Shown: in pieces, positions 2,201 to 40,711 of the stretch
Layout: every line of letters starts with the position of its first letter
Numbering within the stretch: position 1 is the stretch's first letter
Origin: Deltaproteobacteria bacterium HGW-Deltaproteobacteria-19
GTDB taxonomy: Bacteria > Desulfobacterota > Syntrophia > Syntrophales > PHBD01
Assembly (NCBI GenBank): GCA_002841865.1
Contig: PHBD01000027.1
Span: 1 to 40,711 of the forward strand
Direction: 5' to 3'
DNA: 40,711 nucleotides
Notes under the pieces: model-generated
Database searches by the model: none
Seen by the model: only the letters and a program-made list of their open reading frames with translations
Told to the model about the DNA's origin: nothing
Translations under genes and position numbers: made by a program

Positions 2201-2246
2201 TGGTGGGACGTATCGGGATCGAACCGACGACCAACGGATTAAAAGT
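2201..2246 (-). repeat. 46-bp attachment-site repeat: tRNA-Lys(UUU) 3' half, copy 1
   Basis: On the minus strand this reads as an anticodon stem-loop (CGGA-CTTTTAA-TCCG after the first bases, anticodon UUU), variable loop, T arm with GGTTCGATCCC, the 3' acceptor strand ACGTCCC and an encoded ACCA end. The adjoining sequence to the right does not form a D arm or a 5' acceptor strand, so it is only a 3' half. An identical copy lies at 4661-4706. Tyrosine recombinases commonly use exactly this part of a tRNA gene as attB, so this is read as an att site left by integration. Confidence 0.85.
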
Positions 2247-2369
2247 CCCTCAATGTCCCTGTGCTGGTGCGGGTTTGCTGGCCATTGGTTTGGTCATAAT
2301 TTACCAATGCCTTTATTCATAGGGATTCCCCGTCTCAGGTATGGTCACAGCCTTACACCGTCATCCTAA

Positions 2370-2401
2370 CTTTAAAAATGGACCGGTTTTGGGGAAGGTC
2401 A
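2370..2401 (-). mobile_element. Left-end remnant of a second, diverged IS3-family element
   Basis: Minus-strand reading from 2401 gives TGACCTTCCCCAAAACCGG, followed by a tail ending GTTAGGAT. It aligns with the complete left end at 2806 (TGACCTGCCCCCCAAAAACG, also ending GTTAGGAT). Only a few dozen bases of this copy remain. It abuts the broken OrfB reading frame of the neighbouring copy. Confidence 0.6.
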
Positions 2402-2455
2402 ATCCAGCCTTGACCGAACGTGTTCCACGCAGCGCCGGCGTCTGTCGGGACTTAA
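2402..2455 (-). pseudogene. IS3 OrfB N-terminal stub
   Basis: Directly after OrfA, in a different frame, the minus strand encodes SPDRRRRCVEHVRSRLD and then a stop. This matches the usual start of IS3-family OrfB (a Ser-Pro-x-Arg-Arg run followed by Val-Glu-His). It is cut where the neighbouring IS terminus begins at 2401. Confidence 0.65.
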
Positions 2456-2730
2456 TAGTTTCCCTCAAGCGCCTCCTTCAGGATCAACTTGTCCAGGGTC
2501 AGATCGGCCACTGCCTTCTTGAGCCGCGTGTTTTCCTTCTCCAGACCCCTCAACCGCCGGGCCTGGTCCACCTTCATCCCGCCATACTCCCGGCGCCAAC
2601 GATAATACGTCTGCTCCGCTATCCCCATCTCCCGGCAGATCTGGAGCACGTTGACCCCCTGGGGAATCTTTACATCCGCTTCCCGAAGATGCCCAATGAT
2701 TTGCTCCGCTGTAAACCGTTTCCGACCCAT
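2452..2730 (-). CDS. IS3-family transposase OrfA
   Basis: A 92-residue OrfA, the DNA-binding subunit made from the first frame of IS3-type elements. The N-terminal helix-turn-helix is visible (FTAEQIIGHLREADV, then VLQICREMGIAEQTYYRWRR). A leucine-zipper-like segment follows (LRGLEKENTRLKKAVADLTL), used for dimerisation with the OrfAB transposase. The start at 2730 has AGGAGG a few bases upstream. The gene is intact, but the OrfB that should follow is truncated, so it cannot support transposition alone. It could still act as a repressor of related elements. Confidence 0.92.
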   Translation of the reverse strand: MGRKRFTAEQIIGHLREADVKIPQGVNVLQICREMGIAEQTYYRWRREYGGMKVDQARRLRGLEKENTRLKKAVADLTLDKLILKEALEGNY

Positions 2731-2806
2731 TCTGACCTCCTCACTGATCCAGATCTGTGCCGCTATCCTAACATAAAAACTGGATCCGTTTTTGGGGGGC
2801 AGGTCA

Positions 2807-3466
2807 CCAGGTCAACCACAAACGGGTGGAGCGGATCTGGCGGGAGGAAGGATTAAAGGTTCCCAGGAGACAGCGGAAGCGGGGCCGCCTGTGGCTCAAT
2901 GACGGTTCCTGCGTCCGCCTTCGACCGACTCATCGGAATCATGTCTGGTCGTATGACTTTGTGGCCGACCGGACCCATGACGGGCGTCCCCTGAGGATCC
3001 TGACCGTCATCGACGAATACAGCCGGGAGTGCCTGGCCCTTGTGGTGGAGCGACGCCTGCAGTCGGATGATGTTCTGTACTGTTTGGCAGAGCTTTTTGT
3101 AAAGCATGGCGTTCCCGAGTGCATCCGCTCGGACAATGGTTACGAGTTCACGGCCCGGGTAGTTCGGCAGTGGTTGAGCCAGGTTGGTGTTCAAACGCTC
3201 TACATTGAACCGGGCAGTCCCTGGGAGAACGGTTACAACGAGAGCTTCAACGGGAAGTTCCGGAATGAGTTGCTCAACGGAGAGATCTTCTATACCTTGA
3301 AGGAGGCCCAGGTACTGATCGAGCGGTGGAGGGTGGAATACAACACGGTCAGGCCTCACAGCTCATTGAACTATCGCCCCCCGGCACCAGAGGTATGGCT
3401 TCACTGAAGGGCATCCAGATGCAGAATACTAACTCTGGATGTGGTACATGGTTTGGGGGCAGGTCA
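2807..3466 (+). mobile_element. IS3-family insertion sequence, 3' fragment in inverted orientation
   Basis: It begins inside OrfB immediately after the left terminus of the neighbouring fragment at 2806. It runs rightward to a terminal GGGGGCAGGTCA at 3466, the expected right end. It faces away from the OrfA fragment, which implies an inversion or a deletion between two copies. Confidence 0.85.
2808..3407 (+). pseudogene. IS3-family transposase OrfB, N-terminally truncated
   Basis: Encodes the C-terminal two thirds of an IS3-type DDE transposase. The reading frame enters as QVNHKRVERIWREEGLKVP. It contains the rve integrase core: the first Asp in WSYDFVADRT, the second Asp in CIRSDNGYEFTA, and the Glu in ENGYNESFNGKFRNELL. 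The C-terminus YNTVRPHSSLNYRPPAPEVW is typical of the family. The DDE residues survive, but the N-terminal region is missing, so the fragment is not expected to transpose. A GTG at 2826 could start translation, but it lacks a convincing ribosome site. Confidence 0.9.
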
Positions 3467-3507
3467 AGTTGGAAGTGCTCATCGAGAGCCTGGAAAGGCA
3501 CCATAAA

Positions 3508-4560
3508 TTGAATAAAGAACCTTTGATATACATTGCCATTTCAGCCGCCTTGTTTGGAATCAGCCCACCTCTCGCCAAGCTGCTCGTGAAGAATATCCCC
3601 CCGGTTGCCTTGGCCGGATTTCTTTATTTGGGAGCGTTCCTGGGGCTCCTTGTGTATTCTGGTATAACAAGGATCGTCTCTCCAGAGGATAAAAGAAGCG
3701 CGAATCTGAAAAGGACCGATTACCCGTGGCTGTTCGGTGCAATCCTCTCGGGCGGGATCATCGCTCCAATATGTCTGATGTTCGGATTGAGGCAGGTTTC
3801 CGGCTTTAGTGCATCACTGTTACTCAATCTGGAAGGGATCTTTACGGCGGTTATTGCCGTTATATTTTTCAAGGAGAAAGCAGGGGGAAGGCTGTGGCTG
3901 GCATTATTATGCATGACTGCAGCAGGAGTGCTCTTAACATGGGATTCAAACCAGGGTCAGTTCAATGTTTTCGGCCCCTTATTGGTTACTCTTTCCATGA
4001 TGTGCTGGGGCATTGACAATAACCTGACCCGCAACATCTCAGCGAGAAATCCAGTACAGATCACCAGAATTAAAGGATTGGTGGCCGGCTTGGTCTCAAT
4101 CTCTCTGGCTTTTGCTCTCGGGATGGACATAAATTGGGATTCAGCGGTTATTTACGCTCTCTTACTTGGCTCTTTCAGCTATGGGATCAGCCTTGTGCTA
4201 TTTATTAAAGCCCTCGAGGGATTAGGCTCTTTCAGAGCAGGTATGTTCTTCAGTCTTGCTCCGTTCATCGGTGCCGTAACATCCCTTGTGTTGCTGCAAG
4301 AATGGATCGGTTGGGTAATGTTCCTGGCTCTGATTCTTACCGTCGCTGGCTTCTGGCTCATAAGCACAGAAAATCATATGCATTCTCATTCACATCAAGC
4401 GATGATTCATACGCATTTTCACAATCACGGGGATCTTCATCATATTCACGAACATGACGGAATCATTCATGAACCGCATGTTCACGAACACAACCACCTT
4501 GAAGAGAATCATGTGCATCCACATTGGCCAGACTCACATCATAGGCACTTACACAAATGA
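3508..4560 (+). CDS. EamA/DMT-family membrane transporter with a histidine-rich tail
   Basis: An inner-membrane protein of about 350 residues with roughly ten hydrophobic helices in two EamA repeats (for example ISAALFGISPPLAKLLVK and LLLGSFSYGISLVLFIKALE). The last 60 residues are extremely His-rich (HMHSHSHQAMIHTHFHNHGD, and further HxH pairs to the end). Such tails bind Ni, Co, Zn or Cu and are seen on metal transporters and chaperones, so a metal role is inferred; the substrate is unknown. I chose the TTG at 3508 because GGAAAGG lies 9-10 nt upstream and the protein then begins LNKEPLIYIAISAALFG. An upstream in-frame ATG at 3439 lies inside the IS terminus. The IS end is 42 bp away and may have replaced the native promoter. 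The gene is intact. Confidence 0.85.
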   Translation: MNKEPLIYIAISAALFGISPPLAKLLVKNIPPVALAGFLYLGAFLGLLVYSGITRIVSPEDKRSANLKRTDYPWLFGAILSGGIIAPICLMFGLRQVSGFSASLLLNLEGIFTAVIAVIFFKEKAGGRLWLALLCMTAAGVLLTWDSNQGQFNVFGPLLVTLSMMCWGIDNNLTRNISARNPVQITRIKGLVAGLVSISLAFALGMDINWDSAVIYALLLGSFSYGISLVLFIKALEGLGSFRAGMFFSLAPFIGAVTSLVLLQEWIGWVMFLALILTVAGFWLISTENHMHSHSHQAMIHTHFHNHGDLHHIHEHDGIIHEPHVHEHNHLEENHVHPHWPDSHHRHLHK

Positions 4561-4631
4561 GTCATATTGGGAAAAGGGGGTTGCCAGTATCTCACGGAAA
4601 GAATTTGGTCACAACATGGTCACAATGAGAA

Positions 4632-4656
4632 AAGGGCTCCCTTGCGGGAGCCCTTG
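4632..4656 (-). terminator. Intrinsic terminator between the transporter and attachment repeat 2
   Basis: AAGGGCTCC and GGAGCCCTT form a strong stem over a short loop. Read leftward it is followed by TTTTCTC, so it best fits as the terminator of the tRNA whose 3' half is at 4661-4706. It can also end the plus-strand transporter transcript. Confidence 0.7.
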
Positions 4657-4660
4657 ATAT

Positions 4661-4706
4661 TGGTGGGACGTATCGGGATCGAACCGACGACCAACGGATT
4701 AAAAGT
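4661..4706 (-). repeat. 46-bp attachment-site repeat: tRNA-Lys(UUU) 3' half, copy 2
   Basis: Identical over 46 bases to 2201-2246; the identity stops abruptly on both sides. It again contains only anticodon loop, T arm, acceptor 3' strand and CCA. To the right the sequence (TCATACAAAACAACC) is not tRNA. It is read as the left boundary of the large element that fills the rest of the window, with the intact tRNA expected at its far end. Confidence 0.85.
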
Positions 4707-8292: not shown

Positions 8293-10827
8293 TTAGCTTC
8301 CCCAAAGATCATTAATATCCTCTTTTATTTTATTTTCATACATTTTAATTAGATTGAATGTAGCTTTTACTAATCGCTGCTCCTCATCAATTCTGGCTAT
8401 AATATTTCTCTGAATATTGAGCTCAGGAAGAGGTAATTTTGTGTTTTTCAAAAGCTCTGCATTAAAATTTGTCTGATTTACGGCTTGTCTTGAATGTCGT
8501 TTAAAATATTCTTCCCTCCTTAATCTGTTTAACCAGATCCAACAGAATTTGTTTTCTATATCATTAGATTTTTTTGTCAGGGCTAATAAAAAAGATGCAA
8601 AGATATATTGTTGATCAGTATCGTTAAAAATGGCAGTCTTACCGACATGCTTAGGAGCATTTCGCCAGTTAAAAAGTAATGTGTCTGGTCTAAGAATATA
8701 TTTGCGATATTCATCCTTGAATGTAATTTTTCTAATACTAGATAAATCTAATGCGCCATCAAGTTTTAATTCCGCGGTTGAAATTATATTAATTCCGGTA
8801 CAATCGATTTTATCGGGTATAGATTCTGAAACTCCATATTGAATGTCATAAACATCACCAATATCAACCATTTTCCAATCAGGGTCAATTTTAATCTCTG
8901 GAATATAATTGTCGATAACCTGCCTTGCACCATCAATGATCTTCTTATAACGATCAAGTTGAGAGACAATATCCTTCTGGACTTTGAACGGAGGGAGGGG
9001 GATTCCAAGTCTTGAAATATTGGTTTTTGATATTTCCTTGAAAGTTCCACCAGACGCCACATTTTTCATGGTTTCTACAAGATTGGTCACCATATATGCG
9101 ACAAAAGAAGGATTTGTTCGATCAGAATCCTTAATGATAATGTTCTTGAATCCTTGGTTGGTTGCTACCGGTATTTTATTTACCGCAACCCTCCCAATTG
9201 TCGCTCGTGAAGAGACAAGAATGGAATTGACTGGTAATATTTTTGCCGATGATTGTCGAAGACCTTCTTCTGAGATCGTTCTTTCAGTATCTGTAATTAT
9301 TGTTATAAAATTTCTCTGTGGTAAATCACTCAATGTAACCCAATTGACTTCACCGTTCCACAACAATGGATTTGATGAATCGGGTGTACCTCCCGATTCT
9401 ATTGTGAAGTACGCATCATTCCCCAACTCCACCAATGGCCATCGCTGATTTTTAAATGCTACTGTTTCCTTATACCGGTCACCAGACAGATTATAATCTC
9501 CTGATTTTGATATTTTCTCTATAGGAGCTAAACTTGCTATTAGTATATCTTCTTCAGAAAGTACGAAAGATTCCCCTGTCTGGATACATGTCTTGAATTT
9601 CTGAAGGATCTTTACAGCATTCGGTAGATCATTTTTATCACTAGGTCTTCTCTGAGCACCCAGATCAAATCCATCATTCTCAATCTTGATAAACAAAATA
9701 TCCTTGGTCTTTTTTGCTAAAACCCTGTCCATCAGGACGATACTGGTCTTGACTCCTGAATAGGGCTGAAAGATTCCTGCAGGAAGGGAAACCACAGCAT
9801 AGAGATAATTCTGATCAACCATCATCTTTCGGAGCGCTTTATATGCATTAGCGGATTGAAAGATGATCCCCTCCGGCACAATGATCCCAGCTTTTCCGTT
9901 CGGATTCAGGTGCTCCATGATATAGTCAACAAACAGGACTTCTGACCTCTTTGCTTGAATGGAAAATCTTTTATGAGGTTTCACTCCACCCTTGGGTGTC
10001 ATAAATGGGGGATTGGTCAGAATACAGTCAAAATCGTCATCCCATTTATCTAGATTACCTAGCGTGTCATATTCATGGATCTTGGGGTCAGGAAAATCAT
10101 GGAGGTACATATTGACAAGGGAAAGACGGACCATGTCATGGGAAATGTCGTACCCTACGAAGTTATTTGCAAATCTTTTCCTCTCATCAGTAGTAAGAGA
10201 TGATCCAGGCTTATTAAACCCCTCTTTCGTGTTCATTCTCAGGAGATGATGATATGTGGAGATAAGAAATCCTGCTGTTCCGACTGCCGGATCAAGAATC
10301 TTGTCCGTCTTCTGGGGATCCACGACACTGACAATAAAATTGATGATATGGCGAGGGGTCAGGAATTGACCTGCATCCCCCTGTGTTCCCATAACCTGGA
10401 GGAGATATTCAAACGCATCTCCAAGATCACCGTTGTGGCCATATTTAAAACCATCAATCTCTTTCAAGAACAGGGTGAGTACTTCCGGATCCCTGAACGG
10501 GAGAAATGCACTTTTGAAGACATTCCGAAAAAACTGGGGGAGATTCGGGTTGAGATGCATCTTTTCCAACCCTTCTCCATACAGGGTAACCCTTTCGTAT
10601 GCAGATAGGCTCTTATCCAAAAGATGCTTCCAGGCGTATTTCTGGTACTCACCAGTGAAAAATTTATGTGATCCTCCCAATTCGACATTCTGATCATCAA
10701 TGTCATTCATGAATTTGAAGACTAACGCCAATGTAATCTGCTCAACCTGACCGGTGGGGGTAGGAATCTTCCCAACAAGAATATTCCTTGCACTATCAAT
10801 TTTTTGTTTAATCTCCTGAGTCAACAT
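8293..10827 (-). CDS. hsdM: Fused type I restriction-modification subunits M and S
   Basis: An 844-residue fusion. Residues 1-430 are the HsdM N6-adenine methyltransferase: a helical N-domain, the SAM motif DPAVGTAGF at 179-187 and the catalytic NPPF at 272-275. Residues from about 445 are an HsdS specificity subunit with two target-recognition domains. The first begins WPLVELGNDAYFTIESGGTP and ends near ISRLGIPLPPFKVQKDIVSQ; the second begins DWKMVDIGDVYDIQYGVSES and ends LKNTKLPLPELNIQRNIIAR. Normally M and S are separate genes in an M2S complex; here both activities are in one chain. The start ATG at 10827 has GGGGAG upstream. It lies 17 bp after hsdR, so the order is R then MS. The two recognition domains define a bipartite target that cannot be predicted by eye. 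Confidence 0.95.
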   Translation of the reverse strand: MLTQEIKQKIDSARNILVGKIPTPTGQVEQITLALVFKFMNDIDDQNVELGGSHKFFTGEYQKYAWKHLLDKSLSAYERVTLYGEGLEKMHLNPNLPQFFRNVFKSAFLPFRDPEVLTLFLKEIDGFKYGHNGDLGDAFEYLLQVMGTQGDAGQFLTPRHIINFIVSVVDPQKTDKILDPAVGTAGFLISTYHHLLRMNTKEGFNKPGSSLTTDERKRFANNFVGYDISHDMVRLSLVNMYLHDFPDPKIHEYDTLGNLDKWDDDFDCILTNPPFMTPKGGVKPHKRFSIQAKRSEVLFVDYIMEHLNPNGKAGIIVPEGIIFQSANAYKALRKMMVDQNYLYAVVSLPAGIFQPYSGVKTSIVLMDRVLAKKTKDILFIKIENDGFDLGAQRRPSDKNDLPNAVKILQKFKTCIQTGESFVLSEEDILIASLAPIEKISKSGDYNLSGDRYKETVAFKNQRWPLVELGNDAYFTIESGGTPDSSNPLLWNGEVNWVTLSDLPQRNFITIITDTERTISEEGLRQSSAKILPVNSILVSSRATIGRVAVNKIPVATNQGFKNIIIKDSDRTNPSFVAYMVTNLVETMKNVASGGTFKEISKTNISRLGIPLPPFKVQKDIVSQLDRYKKIIDGARQVIDNYIPEIKIDPDWKMVDIGDVYDIQYGVSESIPDKIDCTGINIISTAELKLDGALDLSSIRKITFKDEYRKYILRPDTLLFNWRNAPKHVGKTAIFNDTDQQYIFASFLLALTKKSNDIENKFCWIWLNRLRREEYFKRHSRQAVNQTNFNAELLKNTKLPLPELNIQRNIIARIDEEQRLVKATFNLIKMYENKIKEDINDLWGS

Positions 10828-10844
10828 TCACGTCACTCCCCATT

Positions 10845-13364
10845 TTACATGAATCGGTTAATGTTTACGTTATCCTTAATGTATTCAGGAATCTCCCTTA
10901 ATCGTTTCTGTCCCAACTGCGTAAGGATATGCATCATCATGGGATCACCTGCAAACGCCCCATAATCCTTCTTGTTGATGCGGGTTCTTGTCTCCTCGTC
11001 CACAATGTATGTTTTAAAAAACTCCCTGGTCTCATAGAATAGATTTGGAGGAATACTTGTACTGACGAAATATTTCTCAAACTCTTCCTCCGCAATCTCA
11101 TCCTTACTCTTGAATCGATTGATCTTTCCAAATATTTTATCCAGAATTTCCCATAATCCTAGACGACGATCTGCATTATACCCCTGTCTCAACTTATCCA
11201 GATTGAAATACTCCTCCGGTTTTTCAAACAGATGTGCACGGACATACTGTTCCATTTCCTCATAATTGCCACTATCTACATGATCCTTGAACTCTTCTGA
11301 TTTCTCGTAGGTATCCTTGACTTTGCTCTCGAACTGATGAGAGTAGAGCTCCTTATCAATTCTCCATTCCTCACCATTCGGTTTAAAGATGATCATTGTC
11401 TTTAAAGGGTCAGGGATATCAATGACAGCTGTATCTTTCGGAGGTGGCGGAGGTGGAGGTGGGACACCCTTTGGATATGTTGGTGGCGGTAGTTCAATCA
11501 CATCATCGTAAGGATATTTCTCTTCAAAATATTCACAATTTGCAAAAAAGTCGAATAGCTTGAAATTCTGCTTCTCCTGTCTTTTGGTTACTTCCTGGCC
11601 ACTATCCCTCTGCGTATAAGAGAAGGTGTATTTCCGTGTTCCCCTTCCTCTGATTTGGACAAAATCCGTAGGAGAGAAGATGGGTCGTAACAAACAGATA
11701 TTTAGGAGATCCCTACAGTCATAACCGGTGGTCATCATTCCCACGGTGACACAGACCCTAGTCTTACTGGTCTTATATCCTTCGAGAAAATTGGTGAATC
11801 CACGAAGATTATTGTTGGCAAAATTAATTGTGAATAACTGAGCGTCCGTTATGTCCGAAGTGATCTGTAGTGCAAAGTCGGATTGATATTTGCCTGGAAA
11901 CATCCCCATGGCGTACTCGTTCAGGATTTGTGTTATTTTTCCTGCATGTTTCCTGCTGACACAAAAAATGATCGTTTTCCCGATTTCTTTTGAGATTGGA
12001 TCACGGTTAGCATTTTCAAGAAAGGTCTTGATAAACTGCCCGTTGGTCAGATCGGAGAAGAACCTCTTTTCAAAATCTTTTTGTTTGTAGATTACCTCTT
12101 CTTCGTCTCCCTGTTCGTTCTTGACCATGACTGCATATCCTTGATCCGAAAGGAGCTTAGTGGTGATATCGGTTCTGCAGTCAATTGCCAATGGTCTGAT
12201 TAGATACTTCTGCTGAATTCCATCCTCCAGGGTGTAGCGAAAGGTGGGAACACCACTTTCACATCCAAAGGTTTTGTAGGTGGATAGCAAGACCCTTCTT
12301 TCATACTCCCGTGGGTCGGTGTCCGCCAATTCCTTCTCATCCAGATTTTTCAGATAATCCTTTGGAGTCGCTGTCAGTCCCAGTTTAGCACCAATAAAAT
12401 ATTCAAAGATGACCCGACTATTCCCAGAAATCGAGCGGTGCGCTTCATCAGAGATGATCAGGTCGAAATCGGTGGGGGAGAACAACTTCAAGTATTTGTT
12501 TTCGTACGAGATGCTCTGGATGGTGGTGACAACAACTTCTGCGTTCTTCCAGTCATCGCGGTTTTCTTTAAAAATAACCGAATGATAATCTGGATTGAGA
12601 TAACTTTTTAAATCCTTCCTTGCTTGAGTTTCCAATTCTAGACGATCAACAAGAAACAGTACCCTACTGGCGTTATTTGTCCTGAGATAAAGTTTGATAA
12701 TTGCTCCTGCTACAAGAGTCTTTCCCGTCCCTGTGGCCATCTCAAAAAGGAATCGGTTTTTTCCTTTGGAAACCTCCTTTTGAATCGTTTTAACTGCATC
12801 CAGTTGATAGGGTCTCAGGAATTTTAATCCCGTATCCTCAATAAATTGTGACTGTTGAGATTCGTCCTTCCATCTGGGATCTTGTTGATAGTAGGGATTC
12901 TGAGTCAGGACAACGTAATCTTTATTGACTTCCTCATTGACTAGCTTGGTTGTGTCTGGATTGTACTTCTTGCGATTATTTAGGGTCTCCAGAGATGGGA
13001 AATGGGATATTCTGGTGGGATTCCCCAATTCCTTGTCCCAGAAGTAATGAATGTTTCCATTAGACAGAAGAATGAATCGGACCTTTTGGGATTTTGCGTA
13101 ATCCCTCGCCTGTTCTTTGCCAATGAGGGGGTCCTTGTCCTCCGACTTTGCTTCCAGGACCCCAACAGGAAAACCCTCATTATTAAGGAGAAGGTAATCG
13201 ATATACCCCTTCTTGACCTTCTCGAAGTTATCACCCACTTCTTCGATCTTGACTCCTGGTTCAACCATGATGGTTTCAGGACCCTCAGGAGTCTTGAAAA
13301 ATCTCCATCCTGAATTTTCAAGGAGTTTATTGATCTTGATACGGGCTTTTGCTTCTTTTTGCAT
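10845..13364 (-). CDS. hsdR: Type I restriction endonuclease subunit R
   Basis: An 839-residue motor nuclease that translocates and cuts DNA lacking the host methylation. The N-terminal PD-(D/E)xK nuclease is seen as Asp56 (GYIDYLLLN) and Glu71-x-Lys73 (VLEAKSED). The SF2 helicase has Walker A MATGTGKT at 209-216, the DEAH box at 306-309 (ISDEAHRS) and motif III LTATP. A proline-rich hinge (GVPPPPPPPPKD) separates the motor from a C-terminal helical domain that docks on the methylase. The length fits the shorter HsdR group. The start at 13364 has AAAGGA upstream. It is co-transcribed with the fused MS gene. All key residues are present, so it should be active. Confidence 0.96.
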   Translation of the reverse strand: MQKEAKARIKINKLLENSGWRFFKTPEGPETIMVEPGVKIEEVGDNFEKVKKGYIDYLLLNNEGFPVGVLEAKSEDKDPLIGKEQARDYAKSQKVRFILLSNGNIHYFWDKELGNPTRISHFPSLETLNNRKKYNPDTTKLVNEEVNKDYVVLTQNPYYQQDPRWKDESQQSQFIEDTGLKFLRPYQLDAVKTIQKEVSKGKNRFLFEMATGTGKTLVAGAIIKLYLRTNNASRVLFLVDRLELETQARKDLKSYLNPDYHSVIFKENRDDWKNAEVVVTTIQSISYENKYLKLFSPTDFDLIISDEAHRSISGNSRVIFEYFIGAKLGLTATPKDYLKNLDEKELADTDPREYERRVLLSTYKTFGCESGVPTFRYTLEDGIQQKYLIRPLAIDCRTDITTKLLSDQGYAVMVKNEQGDEEEVIYKQKDFEKRFFSDLTNGQFIKTFLENANRDPISKEIGKTIIFCVSRKHAGKITQILNEYAMGMFPGKYQSDFALQITSDITDAQLFTINFANNNLRGFTNFLEGYKTSKTRVCVTVGMMTTGYDCRDLLNICLLRPIFSPTDFVQIRGRGTRKYTFSYTQRDSGQEVTKRQEKQNFKLFDFFANCEYFEEKYPYDDVIELPPPTYPKGVPPPPPPPPKDTAVIDIPDPLKTMIIFKPNGEEWRIDKELYSHQFESKVKDTYEKSEEFKDHVDSGNYEEMEQYVRAHLFEKPEEYFNLDKLRQGYNADRRLGLWEILDKIFGKINRFKSKDEIAEEEFEKYFVSTSIPPNLFYETREFFKTYIVDEETRTRINKKDYGAFAGDPMMMHILTQLGQKRLREIPEYIKDNVNINRFM

Positions 13365-31534: not shown

Positions 31535-32125
31535 TTATCCGAGCATTAATTGAATTCTCTCCTCTATCCACTTTTCAAAGGGTAAACCGTCTATCGTTGG
31601 GGTACTATATTTAATTGATCTTTGTAACCACTTACGATGCATCATAATAATATCAGACATGAATGGTCGTTCCATGCTGAATTTTTTCTCTAATGTCGGG
31701 ATCAATATCACTGTTGAAAGAATGGCCATTTTGTCACATTCTTCTTTAATAACAATTCTCTTTTCTGTTTTTAGAAGATCACTAAAAGATAATCCAAGTC
31801 TCTCACTCACATATTTATTAATTTTAAAACCACCATTATTTTGTTGGAGCCTCATAATTTGAATTAAAACATCATCTGTTGCACGTTCTCTATTCCATGG
31901 AGGTATTGTCAACTGAGTATCAAGGTCCAGCTTCACATGTACCTTCTCCCCTACCTCCTGAAGCGCAAACTGAATATTCTCTACTGATCGCTTACCCATA
32001 CCTCGCAATCGAATTAATTCGTCCGGTGTCTTCTGGATCAATTCTCCAACCAAGATTATACCAGCCCTTTCAAGACAATTAGCGGAGCGAACGGAAAGAT
32101 CCAATTCGGATGACACAGTACCCAA
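31535..32125 (-). CDS. Orphan RNA polymerase alpha C-terminal domain protein
   Basis: A 196-residue protein. Residues 7-58 match the alpha-CTD of RpoA closely: LDLSVRSANCLERAGIILVG, then ELIQKTPDELIRLRGMGKRS and VENIQFALQEVG. The rest (IQIMRLQQNNGGFKINKYVS, then EERIQLMLG) is unassigned. A free alpha-CTD lacks the part needed to assemble RNA polymerase. It may bind UP elements, compete with the host alpha, or recruit a partner through the extra domain. The start is TTG at 32125 (a GTG is 9 bp further in); no clear ribosome site. Such proteins occur occasionally on mobile elements. Confidence 0.85.
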   Translation of the reverse strand: MGTVSSELDLSVRSANCLERAGIILVGELIQKTPDELIRLRGMGKRSVENIQFALQEVGEKVHVKLDLDTQLTIPPWNRERATDDVLIQIMRLQQNNGGFKINKYVSERLGLSFSDLLKTEKRIVIKEECDKMAILSTVILIPTLEKKFSMERPFMSDIIMMHRKWLQRSIKYSTPTIDGLPFEKWIEERIQLMLG

Positions 32126-35667: not shown

Positions 35668-37575
35668 TCATTCGAATCTGGATTTTTTGGAGGACTGGAG
35701 AGGGATCTTTTCATTTCTGTCCTCCCGGTTCGTCACTGTCATCAGGATCTTGTCCACTTTCAGAGGGACTTTCCCGGTGCTCCCTGTTCCCCGTTTCGCC
35801 TTGAAGACAATCAGGTCAATGTTCCCGTCGTGTTCGATGATGGTGTCCCAGTTCTCCTTGAGTTTGTATTCCCCGTCATCCTCTTCCACAGCGCCCAGAA
35901 TCCCCAGCCAGGACGCCTCGTATTCGATGGAACCGGATTCCTTGAAGGACGCCATGGACAATCTCTGGCCGGATTTGTAGGAATCCCTGGCCAGCTCAGA
36001 GATGGCGATGACGGGAATGTTGTAGTTCTTGGCGATCTGGTTCAATTTGCCGATAATGTCATCCACCCGCAGGCGCTCATCTCCTGATCCCTTCTCAGTC
36101 CTCAATTTTCGGAGGTAGTCGATGATGATGACCGGACCCCTTCCGTGCTTCTTCACGATCTGATCAATCAGGTCGCACCACTTCTCGACCGGGATCATCT
36201 CCTGGACAACATATTTCAGGGACATGATGGTTTGGATGGATTGATTCTCACAGATCCCATGAAGGTCCTTCAGCTGTCTGGTATTGAACACATCAATGGG
36301 ATACTTCGAGAATCGGGAGAATGTGCGGTAGCGGATCTCCGACCTCCCGTCGTCGTAACTGAAGAACAGAACAGGTTGACCGGCAAGACAGATGTTGTCG
36401 GCGATGTTGTTCAAGAGGACGGTCTTTCCAGAAGAAGGGATTCCTCCAAAGATGTAGAACCTTCCCCCCACGAACCCACCATTCATCTGACTTTCCAGGA
36501 GGGTCAGGTTGTCACCGGCGAAAGGGATCCGGACATAATTCTTCTGGTACTCCGCAGTCGCTTTCTCGGAGCTGTCCAGAAAGGTTTCAATACTGACCTT
36601 CGCCTGTTTCTTTGCATTGCTGTTCTTCTCCTCCAGGGACTTGACCGACTCGAAGGTCCTTTTCAGTTCATCCAGATCCAGTGGTGGTTTCACCTTGGTC
36701 TGATTCCAGATTATGACCGTCTCCCAGATCTCTTCCGGTTTCATTCCCGTCTTGAAGAGGTGTCCAATGAAGCTGGTCGTCACATGATTCCGTTCACCCT
36801 CCTGGCAACCCTCCTGTAGGAGCCTTGAAAATTCTCCGGTGGAATTCTCCTTGACGGGTTTTTTGTTGTCCTGGTCGGGAATCTCCCGGTTCAGCTCATT
36901 GTCTCCGTCCTTGGGAGCTTTCTTCTTCCCAACCTGTTCGTTGACGTCCTTGAGGTATTGAATCATCCAAGGTTCACAGGGCGCGGGATCAAGCTCCCAG
37001 ATGGAATGTCCCTCTTCCCACCAGTACTGATGACCGGACCCGTGAATGGAAGGAGGAGCCACCACGTATCCCCCGTCAGACCTGATATCAATGGCCAGAT
37101 CCTTGTTGACGCTGTTCTTTACCGGGAACCCCGGATGCTTCATGTAGACGTGATAACCCTTTCCCGTCTTAACCTTCACCGTTTCCGGGAATCCTCCCTC
37201 TTCTTCCGCGTAGGCGACCGCGTCTTCCGAATCCAGGTCAAAGACGACAAGGTTGGAGACCGTTCCGGTGATGATGGCGATGTTTGGTTCAGGATTCTGA
37301 CCAAACCATGTCCCCACCTCTTCTTCGGTAGGGAGGCGTTTCTGGTATTCCGTCCAACCCGAGATGCAGGGTTTCTTGCACTGTCGTGTCAGGACCATCT
37401 CCCGCACCTTTTCTTTCGGTTTGGGATTCTCCTCATTGGCGTTCTTCTCCAGTTCCTTCTGGAGTGCTTCATGATATCCGTATGGCGGGTTCTTCCTGAC
37501 CATCTCCGGGCTCCAGAGGGGAATGGTTGAAAATCCTTTCTGCAGGTAACGGAGTGCGTAATCCACGTTTGTCAT
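35668..37575 (-). CDS. Primase-polymerase / DnaB-type helicase fusion
   Basis: A 635-residue two-domain replication enzyme. Residues 1-210 are a bifunctional primase-polymerase (Prim-Pol): Asp113 and Asp115 in VVFDLDSEDA, His142 in TGKGYHVYM and Asp163 in AIDIRSDGGYVVAPPS. Residues about 260-315 form a primase C-terminal helical region (IGHLFKTGMKPEEIWETVII). Residues 355-590 are a DnaB/RecA-like ATPase: Walker A GGIPSSGKT at 377-385, Walker B PVIIIDYLRKL at 481-491 and the sensor AISELARD. It can prime and unwind from the origin. Translation is coupled to the ribbon-helix-helix gene, whose end holds its ribosome site (GGAGGAAC). Confidence 0.95.
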   Translation of the reverse strand: MTNVDYALRYLQKGFSTIPLWSPEMVRKNPPYGYHEALQKELEKNANEENPKPKEKVREMVLTRQCKKPCISGWTEYQKRLPTEEEVGTWFGQNPEPNIAIITGTVSNLVVFDLDSEDAVAYAEEEGGFPETVKVKTGKGYHVYMKHPGFPVKNSVNKDLAIDIRSDGGYVVAPPSIHGSGHQYWWEEGHSIWELDPAPCEPWMIQYLKDVNEQVGKKKAPKDGDNELNREIPDQDNKKPVKENSTGEFSRLLQEGCQEGERNHVTTSFIGHLFKTGMKPEEIWETVIIWNQTKVKPPLDLDELKRTFESVKSLEEKNSNAKKQAKVSIETFLDSSEKATAEYQKNYVRIPFAGDNLTLLESQMNGGFVGGRFYIFGGIPSSGKTVLLNNIADNICLAGQPVLFFSYDDGRSEIRYRTFSRFSKYPIDVFNTRQLKDLHGICENQSIQTIMSLKYVVQEMIPVEKWCDLIDQIVKKHGRGPVIIIDYLRKLRTEKGSGDERLRVDDIIGKLNQIAKNYNIPVIAISELARDSYKSGQRLSMASFKESGSIEYEASWLGILGAVEEDDGEYKLKENWDTIIEHDGNIDLIVFKAKRGTGSTGKVPLKVDKILMTVTNREDRNEKIPLQSSKKSRFE

Positions 37576-38985: not shown

Positions 38986-40083
38986 TTAGTTTGTCAGAAA
39001 ACCCTTCACGATACTGAAATCCTGATCCCCAAAGTTCTCGACCACGGACAGGGCGCGTATGAGCTTGTCATAGCCCCTGACCGGTCTTTCCATCCTGCTC
39101 CGAAGAAACCGGTCCAGCGATGCGACACTTCCCGCGTGCTGGAACGCCTGGCGACACAGGTTGTTGATGGCCCAGTTATTATGATTCCGAAGAAAATATC
39201 GCCTATCCGTCTCGGGAGTGTTCACGATCTGGAAGGCAGTATAATGGTGGCACCAGGGACATTCACACCGCGCCCGTACCCTGTCATTGAATGGCGTCCC
39301 CTCTTTCGCGGGCCATTGTCGGAGGGACCATGGGTCCAGATAAATCATCTTGTCGGAGTTCATGCGCCAGCTCGTCGCATCGATGGAAACCCACTCGAAA
39401 ATATGTCGGGCGAAGAACGACGCGAGCACAATCCCTGTGAAGCTTGAGTAACTGAGGATATGGACTCGTCGAACCCCCATTTGACGGAACTTCATAAGAA
39501 ACAACGACACCCCCAGTGGGTCCAGGTTCCGGGTCGGCAATGCGAGCCCGCTGTAATCCAGGTCCGCGAGATATCTCTCCAGAATCCTGAACTGCTCCAG
39601 GTCATAGGCCTGAACCGGGACCAGCAATTGAATCTCCGGGCAGTATTTATTTCGTAGTTTCGCTGTCTCTTCCGTCCACATGATGTTGAACCCCAATTTC
39701 TCCATAAATTCGTGTTGCTGCCTTGACCTGTCGGAAATCTTCGATATGGGGCGGTCCAGAGCCACCAGAAAGTCTGGTCTGACCCTGAGGGCTGCTTGTA
39801 TCACGTGGATGGGATGGAGATTGATCCCGTCCGGCCCGTAAAGCAACGTTTTGTCCGAGTCGGAATCAACCAGCACCCCAGCCAGTTCTTTTTGCAGAAC
39901 CTGATACCCTCCGCTGTCCAGCATGGTGTACCGGGGCCGCAGCTTCTCGATCAAATTCAGGCTATGCCTGACAAGGATTTCGCTCGCTGCGTTCTGCGGT
40001 ACGTTGAGGAGTACACCCTCAATGTCGCTGTCCGGCGCTACCGCCTCATTGATTCCCGCCAGGAAGTTGACGAGAACCCCCAC
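38986..40083 (-). CDS. TGT/DpdA-like 7-deazaguanine transglycosylase family protein
   Basis: A 365-residue protein of the tRNA-guanine transglycosylase superfamily. It has the substrate motif MLDSGGYQ (Asp56; TGT Asp102 region), VALDRP (Asp110), a VPVQAYDLEQFR strand, and VSIDATSW (Asp235), which sits where the catalytic nucleophile lies. The zinc site is CxCxxC (Cys273, Cys275, Cys278) and His301. The group is related to DpdA, which exchanges guanine in DNA for 7-deazaguanine bases, rather than to tRNA TGT, but the exact substrate is inferred. The GTG start at 40083 is weak; a strong AGGAGG lies in the end of the ParB-like gene, so translation is likely coupled. Confidence 0.8.
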   Translation of the reverse strand: MGVLVNFLAGINEAVAPDSDIEGVLLNVPQNAASEILVRHSLNLIEKLRPRYTMLDSGGYQVLQKELAGVLVDSDSDKTLLYGPDGINLHPIHVIQAALRVRPDFLVALDRPISKISDRSRQQHEFMEKLGFNIMWTEETAKLRNKYCPEIQLLVPVQAYDLEQFRILERYLADLDYSGLALPTRNLDPLGVSLFLMKFRQMGVRRVHILSYSSFTGIVLASFFARHIFEWVSIDATSWRMNSDKMIYLDPWSLRQWPAKEGTPFNDRVRARCECPWCHHYTAFQIVNTPETDRRYFLRNHNNWAINNLCRQAFQHAGSVASLDRFLRSRMERPVRGYDKLIRALSVVENFGDQDFSIVKGFLTN

Positions 40084-40085
40084 GT

Positions 40086-40711
40086 CTATCTCACGGTCTC
40101 ACCTCCTTGCTCCCCTCTGAGGGTGTTCAGGGTGGTCAGCAGGGCCTGCAGGGCCACCATCTCATCCCTGAGCCGCTCCACCATCTCGTTGAGATCTACC
40201 TCTTCCTGGACGACCGCCTCGATTCTCTGGGCGACTGTCCGGACCGACTGCTTGATGGCCGGAAGAGAATTGTTGTCGTCGGGTGCGGGTGTAGTCTCGG
40301 AGACTTCTGAAGCCCGAGAGGCATCCGTGTCATCATCGTTGTTGTCACCATTCGTATCGACCGGGGGCGCCGCTACGGTCCGATTCTGTTTTGCCCGCCG
40401 GGCTTTCCGGGCCGACTTCTTGCCCGCCTTCTTGCTATCAAAAAAAATCGAGATGAAGCTGATAGCCGCCGCGGAGATCTCCTGAGTGATGCAGATGGCG
40501 TCAGCGTTCTCCTTCTGGAGTCTCGCGAGCAGTTGCCTCTTTACCCGTCGATTGAACGTCTCGAAGAACTCCTTGGGCATGCGCTCAGCAATAAGACGCT
40601 CAATCGTCTCATGGCTGAGATGCTCGACGTAGGAAATGTGGTCGTTAATGGTGTCACGGTCCTTTCCCAGCCGGGTGGCCAGGATCTGGCGGGCATTGTT
40701 CTGCTTGTCCT
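40086..40711 (-). CDS. ParB-like protein, N-terminus beyond the window
   Basis: The frame enters from the right edge as DKQNNARQILATRLGKDRDT, then INDHISYVEHLSHETIERLI, an HTH of ParB/KorB type. An Ala/Lys-rich basic segment follows (DSKKAGKKSARKARRAKQNR), then a disordered Asp/Asn tract (TNGDNNDDDTDASRASEVSE) and a final coiled coil (VDLNEMVERLRDEMVALQAL). Its last codons contain the ribosome site for the TGT-like gene, so the two are coupled. In dpd DNA-modification clusters a ParB-domain partner (DpdB) accompanies DpdA. A plain partition or replication role is the alternative. The catalytic N-terminal ParB/Srx part is outside the window. Confidence 0.75.
   Translation of the reverse strand, partial: DKQNNARQILATRLGKDRDTINDHISYVEHLSHETIERLIAERMPKEFFETFNRRVKRQLLARLQKENADAICITQEISAAAISFISIFFDSKKAGKKSARKARRAKQNRTVAAPPVDTNGDNNDDDTDASRASEVSETTPAPDDNNSLPAIKQSVRTVAQRIEAVVQEEVDLNEMVERLRDEMVALQALLTTLNTLRGEQGGETVR

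Follow-up and report, generated by a model that had tools for sequence, protein, structure and literature searches.

In Deltaproteobacteria bacterium HGW-Deltaproteobacteria-19, a member of the Syntrophales, an integrated element carries a gene of the tRNA-guanine transglycosylase (TGT) superfamily directly after a ParB-like gene, and this locus raises the question of whether such a pair exchanges bases in DNA, acts on RNA, or merely shares a neighbourhood. The whole stretch of DNA analysed, referred to here as the window, comprises 40,711 nucleotides (contig PHBD01000027.1, positions 1 to 40,711), and positions beyond it are given on the host contig, C73. The window gene encodes a TGT-superfamily protein with the TGT fold and conserved catalytic residues, and the ParB-TGT pair is conserved and mobile, being carried on several mobile elements. 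By the tests made on its sequence, the enzyme is not DpdA and forms a separate group within the TGT superfamily. By analogy with known systems, the pair may constitute a ParB-partnered transglycosylase that acts on DNA and is fed by host 7-deazaguanine, a reading for which the chances appear about even. The original prediction had presented the locus as a candidate DNA-modification system of the DpdA-DpdB kind; its TGT-ParB-like pair on a mobile element stood, and its Dpd membership did not.

The TGT-superfamily protein

38986..40083, minus strand: TGT-superfamily protein gene, GTG start, 365 amino acids (Pfam TGT, Foldseek and VIA matches to solved TGTs, relatives)
39901..39918, minus strand: DSGGYQ, residues 56-61, motif of the first catalytic Asp, aligning with DSGGFQ of E. 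coli TGT
39367..39384, minus strand: IDATSW, residues 234-239, D235 aligning with DSASY, a strand of archaeal TgtA (1iq8)
39250..39267, minus strand: CECPWC, residues 273-278, putative zinc-site cysteines (sequence and alignment)
39181-39183, minus strand: H301, the His after CECPWC

The assignment to the TGT superfamily, originally made from DSGGYQ, IDATSW and the CxCxxC...H site, was confirmed by the sequence, Pfam and a structural model. The protein passes the curated threshold of PF01702 (29.8 bits; cut-off 26.3). Seven TGT-like loci were compared: the window, L009, L012 and L043, which are close, and L044, L010 and L011, which are distant. PF01702 scores reach 36.1 bits for L012 and 41.3 bits for L043, and the L044 protein gives no Pfam TGT match at E-value (E) ≤1. 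The similarity goes beyond chance, because intact full-length homologues exist that are 36-43% identical to the window protein, and the GTG start is supported because relatives start at the same residue (MG..). D56, S57, G59, Q61, D110, Q158, D235 and N302 are invariant in all seven aligned sequences, window included. CxCxxC and the subsequent His occur in 4/4 close members, and CxCxxC is absent from the three distant ones. The residue aligned with D235, the Asp of the DSASY strand, is presumably the nucleophile of TgtA.

The model, built from three sequences, has a mean predicted local distance difference test score (pLDDT) of 70 and a predicted template modelling score of 0.76, with residues 58-91 poor. 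Solved TGTs rank first in Foldseek (1s39, E 4e-6, prob 1.0), and VIA aligns the model with 7b2i_C (Z 17.6, root-mean-square deviation 4.3, 304 aligned) and with TgtA (1iq8, Z 16.7). In the BFVD structure search, the three matches at E ≤0.001 all belong to phage proteins or to unnamed ones that carry no functional name, and phage proteins annotated as queuosine/queuine tRNA-ribosyltransferase appear only at E 0.28 and 0.72.

The ParB-like partner

40086..40711, minus strand: ParB-like gene, 3' part, which covers the helix-turn-helix (HTH) region and the C-terminal helices; a 15-N gap separates it from the 5' part, outside the window at C73:40727-41368
40102..40106, minus strand: GGAGG within the end of the ParB-like gene, preceding the GTG by 18 nt

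The stop codon of the ParB-like gene lies 2 bp ahead of the GTG of the TGT-like gene. The ribosome site foreseen in the end of the ParB-like gene is present as GGAGG, at a spacing longer than usual. The window edge is an assembly (scaffold) gap that cuts the ParB-like gene; beyond it, a 214-amino-acid N-terminal part is matched by BLAST to the corresponding half of the intact ParB-like proteins of L009 (E 5e-28), L043 (E 7e-27) and L012 (E 7e-19). Five ParB-like proteins scanned gave no Pfam match pointing to ParB at E ≤1. A low-confidence model of the UBA1163 protein (mean pLDDT 56, N-terminal half poor) found Spo0J/ParB as its top Foldseek matches at E 0.04-0.8, the best being 1vz0 (E 0.042, prob 0.96) and none reaching E ≤0.001. 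In VIA, ParB chains had Z 4.9-6.2, no higher than unrelated rows, the output being filled by long helices. The ParB-like profile found a single chance match among PDB sequences (Cas9, E 0.51), the ParB-like protein P0004 found none in the phage collection at E ≤0.1, and hhalign detected no similarity to mycobacteriophage ParB-like proteins (prob 0.1). A weak PHROGs "tail completion" match of the ParB-like part (E 0.024) was taken as chance.

Conservation and mobility of the pair

The window protein and three relatives (UBA1163, UBA4088 and G534) are 36-49% identical; in all four a related ParB-like gene immediately precedes the TGT-like one, and three of them sit next to an integrase and a tRNA gene. 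A ParB-like gene lies directly upstream in five of the seven loci, clearly so in the window, L009, L012 and L043; for the upstream protein of L011 the similarity is weak (hhalign E 0.0016, prob 16%). Apart from the 2-bp gap of the window, the junction is an overlap in L011, and the remaining three paired loci have gaps of 12-22 bp. The predicted coupling of the TGT-like enzyme to a ParB-like partner was upheld by this junction and by the conservation of the pair in other elements.

Regarding mobility, 6-14 bp separate the integrase and a tRNA gene in the window element, L012 and L009, and the integrases of the window element and L012 are 61% identical despite different tRNAs (Lys and Phe). In L043 and L044, a tRNA gene and the first element-like gene are no more than about 0.5 kb apart, and the L010 and L011 stretches have no tRNA gene. 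No tRNA repeats of L043, L009 and L012 were found in the sequenced stretches examined. Replication genes are nearby in the window (by Pfam) and in L043, L044, L010 and L011 (by reading translations).

The TGT-like family is rare and patchy in the genomes sampled. The window protein matched 3/395 genomes of a phylum sample, its own included, and among the 60 nearest relatives only its own. Profile A3 matched 4/155 genomes of the class, again including its own and also a match in G527 that, being a 33-amino-acid fragment with a stop, was not counted as a relative, and profile A7 matched 3/395 genomes, plus 1/185 in the phylum of UBA4088. A pattern scan of genome contigs yielded Synergistaceae UBA4088 and Syntrophaceae UBA1163; the UBA4088 contig measures 6.8 kb in a metagenome-assembled genome, so that mis-binning is possible. 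Single-protein pattern scans of genome and viral contigs found no close relative, and neither did three alignments in viral contigs. The window protein had no match in phage and plasmid collections at E ≤0.01, nor the L011 protein in phages at E ≤1.

In two of the distant loci, L010 and L011, both in genome G094, the TGT-like gene has no CxCxxC and is accompanied by genes for an initiator-like protein and a UvrD-like helicase (translations read). Their TGT-like proteins are 43% identical, and two neighbour genes are 85-95% identical.

The ParB-like protein might instead serve the element in partition or regulation, with the TGT-like protein as accessory cargo of unrelated role. Its predicted ParB-type HTH would suit such a function, as would the two loci in which the TGT-like gene has no ParB-like neighbour. 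We consider this improbable, since the pair persists while other element genes vary, the junctions are coupled, and Pfam recognised no ParA in the set of element proteins that was scanned, which does not cover every small open reading frame (ORF).

Proposed action on DNA

In the mechanism proposed, the two genes would form one module carried by a tRNA-integrated element. The Asp nucleophile of the TGT-like enzyme would cut the glycosidic bond of guanine in nucleic acid, and the guanine would be exchanged for a 7-deazaguanine precursor from the host queuosine pathway. The HTH-bearing ParB-like protein may bring the enzyme to DNA or load it there; the element (or replicating) DNA would thereby be marked and could escape restriction.

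Partners of these kinds are known. DpdB has been described as a ParB-like ATPase working with DpdA (PMC12839542), and in mycobacteriophage CRB2 (ORF1-2) the ORF ahead of a DpdA-like one has been suggested to encode a DpdB of the ParB superfamily (PMC6392294), so that the DpdA-DpdB partnership invoked by the original prediction is in print. The gene order of MasterPo (Mycobacterium phage, Rosebushvirus) agrees: its genes 1-2, ParB-like and DpdA, overlap by 4 bp, and QueC, QueD, QueE and FolE complete the row. About 28% of G is present as dPreQ0 in Rosebush DNA (PMC6884629). Phages with DpdA alone that infect hosts with the queuosine pathway, and possibly draw on a host precursor, are also known (PMC6884629). 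Modification amounts to only about 0.02-0.11% in phage nt-1, which has DpdA2 (PMC6884629).

The known systems resemble the window pair in different respects. Phage DpdA of MasterPo and CRB2 likewise follows straight after a ParB-like gene and has a D-S-x-x-W strand (DSSGW in MasterPo); it differs in having no zinc motif, in having DSGA[FH] (7/8 phage DpdAs) instead of DSGGYQ, and in its separate clade. In MasterPo, preQ0 genes follow the pair; none was recognised among the proteins of the window element that were scanned. DpdA2 of Vibrio phage nt-1 (YP_008125322) shares the DSGG-Q motif, has a DSST strand and falls outside the main phage DpdA clade; however, it is a 464-residue, weakly similar protein that has no zinc motif and lies within a preQ0 cluster. 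Large-phage TGT-like proteins (GR7B, GR11A, Voja-6 and PhiXhv-15) have DSGGFQ and the zinc motif in 4/4 and a DASTW strand in 3/4, but they are 456-568 residues long and form their own clade. In BREX-related capture (BRC) systems, the defence locus includes a homologue of TGT, for which a role in marking DNA has been proposed, together with HerA, PglZ and GNAT (PMC12839542); these systems are likened to the window pair by description, not by sequence, and differ in having no DpdB homologue in the available text of that source (PMC12839542). ParBc proteins also occur near the phage cytosine-modification gene CmoX, their role being given as unknown in the available text (PMC12783734).

Large-phage TGT-like proteins were matched in 19 records, and the four viewed (L032-L035) had no annotated preQ0 gene within 4 kb.

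Source of the base in host genomes

The rightward reading of the contig, proposed earlier as a way to find preQ0-synthesis or dpdC/D-type genes, gave none: Pfam recognised neither a preQ0-synthesis gene nor dpdC or dpdD-K among the element proteins scanned. The host genomes themselves carry queuosine genes. QueA (PF02547) is present in 6/6, and the window host has a canonical TGT together with QueA on contig C43. A full-length QueC match (>250 bits) was obtained in three (G246, G094 and G461); in G000, G443 and G534 the QueC matches are short, at 20-25 bits, and some of them exceed the Pfam cut-off, which is low at 22. Three genomes, G000, G534 and G246, encode a YhhQ-family importer (PF02592), the window host being among these three. 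Judged from these matches, five of the six host genomes could make or import a 7-deazaguanine precursor.

Relationship to DpdA and to tRNA transglycosylases

The NCBIfam model for DpdA (NF041059) did not match the window protein at E ≤10 or four relatives at E ≤1. As a control, DpdA of phage 9g scores just 13.9 bits against a cut-off of 200; the model is therefore narrow, and this null result is not to be over-read. No match was found in the window's own genome, and 0/198 genomes exceeded the cut-off. In 26/198 there were matches far below it, and 9/10 loci examined hold a canonical-TGT-like ORF with DSGG[FY]Q and CxCxxC, L017 having none. PADLOC matched neither the TGT-like nor the ParB-like protein, and whether it includes a DpdA model was not checked. 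PHROGs gave no match for the window protein at E ≤10 or for four relatives at E ≤0.1, and the phage DpdAs of 9g and MasterPo used as controls match 887/7068. The DpdA structure 7UI4 (PMC12137116) is absent from the Foldseek, VIA and PDB-profile rows shown, which is no evidence, because 9g DpdA, used as a phmmer control against PDB sequences, did not retrieve any DpdA. The NCBIfam model for TgtA (TIGR00432) gives the window protein 21.8 bits, far under its cut-off of 350.

In the first tree (30 rows), the window group of seven is supported at 98/94, phage DpdA at 100/98, bacterial TGT (n=11) at 100/100 and the large-phage proteins at 98/98. Support for joining the window group to bacterial TGT is 93/86, under the program's strong mark. 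For the second tree, DpdA2 of nt-1 was added and DpdA_7-11, DpdA_DshR26L and W2_L044 were removed on account of long branches; the groups were kept (window group 100/99, bacterial TGT 100/99), with the deeper order open. Both trees contain long branches and have no rows for bacterial DpdA or archaeal TgtA, which limits placement. In both of these trees, of the superfamily kind suggested earlier, the window group is not inside the bacterial tRNA TGT clade, and it does not group with phage DpdA either.

Regarding motifs, DSGA as first motif occurs in 7/8 phage DpdAs and 0/7 of the window group. The D-[AS]-x-[ST]-[WYF] strand is found in 7/7 of the window group, 5/8 phage DpdAs, 3/4 large-phage proteins and 0/11 bacterial TGTs. 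Bacterial tRNA TGT (E. coli; host C43) resembles the window protein in its fold, DSGG[FY]Q and zinc motif, and differs in the strand and in forming its own clade. Profile comparison of DpdA2 with the window group gave E 0.0056 (hhalign), from one DpdA2 row on a long branch.

A true but pared-down Dpd system, DpdA-DpdB in the strict sense, would account for two partners of the same kinds in the same gene order as in phages. This is very improbable: NF041059 matched neither the protein nor its genome, and the tree and profiles exclude phage DpdA. The original claim of Dpd membership was not supported, NF041059, PADLOC and PHROGs giving no match and both trees placing the enzyme outside phage DpdA.

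Several results weigh against an action on DNA. The window group lies outside phage DpdA in both trees, and in profile comparison the four close members match bacterial TGT at E 4e-5 and phage DpdA at E 0.01 (large-phage TGT-like proteins, E 2e-6). The best solved relative by profile is archaeal TgtA (1iq8, E 1e-7), in which DSASY aligns with DATSW; tRNA TGT and archaeal TgtA act on tRNA. Because TgtA also has this D-S/A-x-S/T-W/Y strand, the strand is not DNA-specific; conversely, the occurrence of DSGG-Q in DpdA2 means that this motif is no proof of a tRNA target either. The zinc motif is kept, as in 11/11 bacterial TGTs, and is absent from 8/8 phage DpdAs and DpdA2. L010 and L044 have no upstream ParB-like gene, and the label of the partner, which rests on intact copies in relatives and a low-confidence model, is "ParB-like", not ParB. 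No full-length QueC match was obtained in the window host, whose QueC matches lie on contigs C28 and C35 and none on C73, and G443 has neither a full-length QueC match nor the importer. For phages with DpdA alone, the available text reports Orion DNA as unmodified, its host making no precursor, and 7-11 DNA as modified at about 0.02% of G (PMC6884629).

The main competing explanation is that the protein is a diverged transglycosylase for tRNA or another RNA, through which the element alters host or own RNA, with the ParB-like gene as a mere operon neighbour. The nearest profiles of known role are those of TgtA (tRNA-guanine(15) transglycosylase) and tRNA TGT, the zinc region and DSASY strand of TgtA align with the window protein, and both the retained zinc motif and the join to bacterial TGT in the first tree favour this explanation. 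However, at 365 residues the window protein has no counterpart of the long C-terminal part of the 582-residue TgtA (1iq8), a part that serves tRNA binding; the host already possesses a canonical TGT and QueA; and the conserved, HTH-bearing partner suits DNA better. An RNA target is therefore judged unlikely, though it deserves more weight than the other alternatives.

The integrated element

C73:42891-43985: tyrosine integrase, beyond the window
C73:43992-44067: intact tRNA-Lys(TTT), 6 bp past the integrase
4661..4706: left attachment repeat, a perfect 46-bp match to the portion of tRNA-Lys at C73:43992, next to the integrase
2201..2248: second left repeat copy, 48 bp of the tRNA-Lys gene
35668..37575, minus strand: Prim-Pol/DnaB-like helicase, an element replication gene downstream of the pair (Pfam Prim-Pol 1.5e-29, DnaB_C 4.7e-27)
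8293-13364, minus strand: type I-like restriction set of the element, made up of an HsdM-HsdS fusion (N6_Mtase with two stretches of Methylase_S) and an HsdR-like helicase

The placement of the pair on an integrating element was borne out by the integrase, the intact tRNA-Lys and the 46-48-bp repeats that mark the element out. It spans 4661-44039 (39,379 bp) and has 44.1% GC, compared with 62.9% in the right flank. To the right of the ParB-like gene, beyond the window, lie an ORF with a weak CGNR zinc-finger match (18 bits, cut-off 24) and, before the integrase, an HTH_17 excisionase-like ORF; past tRNA-Lys follow purA, serA, serC, radA, purH and purD (translations read by eye). Cysteine-rich ORFs lie close to the integrase in both elements, at L009:6947-7738 and L003:3635-4378, the one of the window element being the weak CGNR match. 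At the left end, the extra tRNA-Lys repeat copy encloses a 2.4-kb segment (2201-4661) that encodes an EamA transporter, an arrangement resembling two stacked insertions. Further cargo comprises UvrD, a PD-(D/E)XK nuclease and the restriction set, and the minus strand at 31535-32125 encodes a protein carrying the C-terminal domain of RNA polymerase alpha (PF03118, 63.7 bits). A PHROGs scan of 15 element proteins recognised no phage structural gene, and an Rfam scan of the window gave no match.

The type I-like restriction set brings in another explanation, in which the modification would label self DNA for restriction by the same element. dpd islands couple synthesis (dpdA-C) with restriction (dpdD-K) (PMC11888242), which offers a parallel. 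Nevertheless, HsdM-S already provides methylation, the restriction genes lie about 25 kb off, and none was read in the stretches of L009 (11.5 kb), L012 (6.8 kb) and L043 (20 kb). Such a self-mark appears quite improbable.

Implications

DNA modification with 7-deazaguanine has so far been known from dpd islands and phages. The literature search found no ParB-TGT pair on integrative elements, subscription papers being mostly outside its reach. Tentatively, and with somewhat less confidence than in the action on DNA itself, the pair may represent a further transglycosylase lineage, independent of DpdA and DpdA2, on tRNA-integrated elements, in which the ParB-like partner directs the enzyme to the element's own DNA and the base comes from the host queuosine pathway or a preQ0 importer, so that modified DNA would be obtained from two genes. 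If this is true, a ParB-TGT pair on integrative elements that have no recognised preQ0 genes of their own would extend this modification to a new lineage of enzymes and to a new kind of carrier, and it would suggest ParB-like proteins as general partners of base-exchange enzymes.

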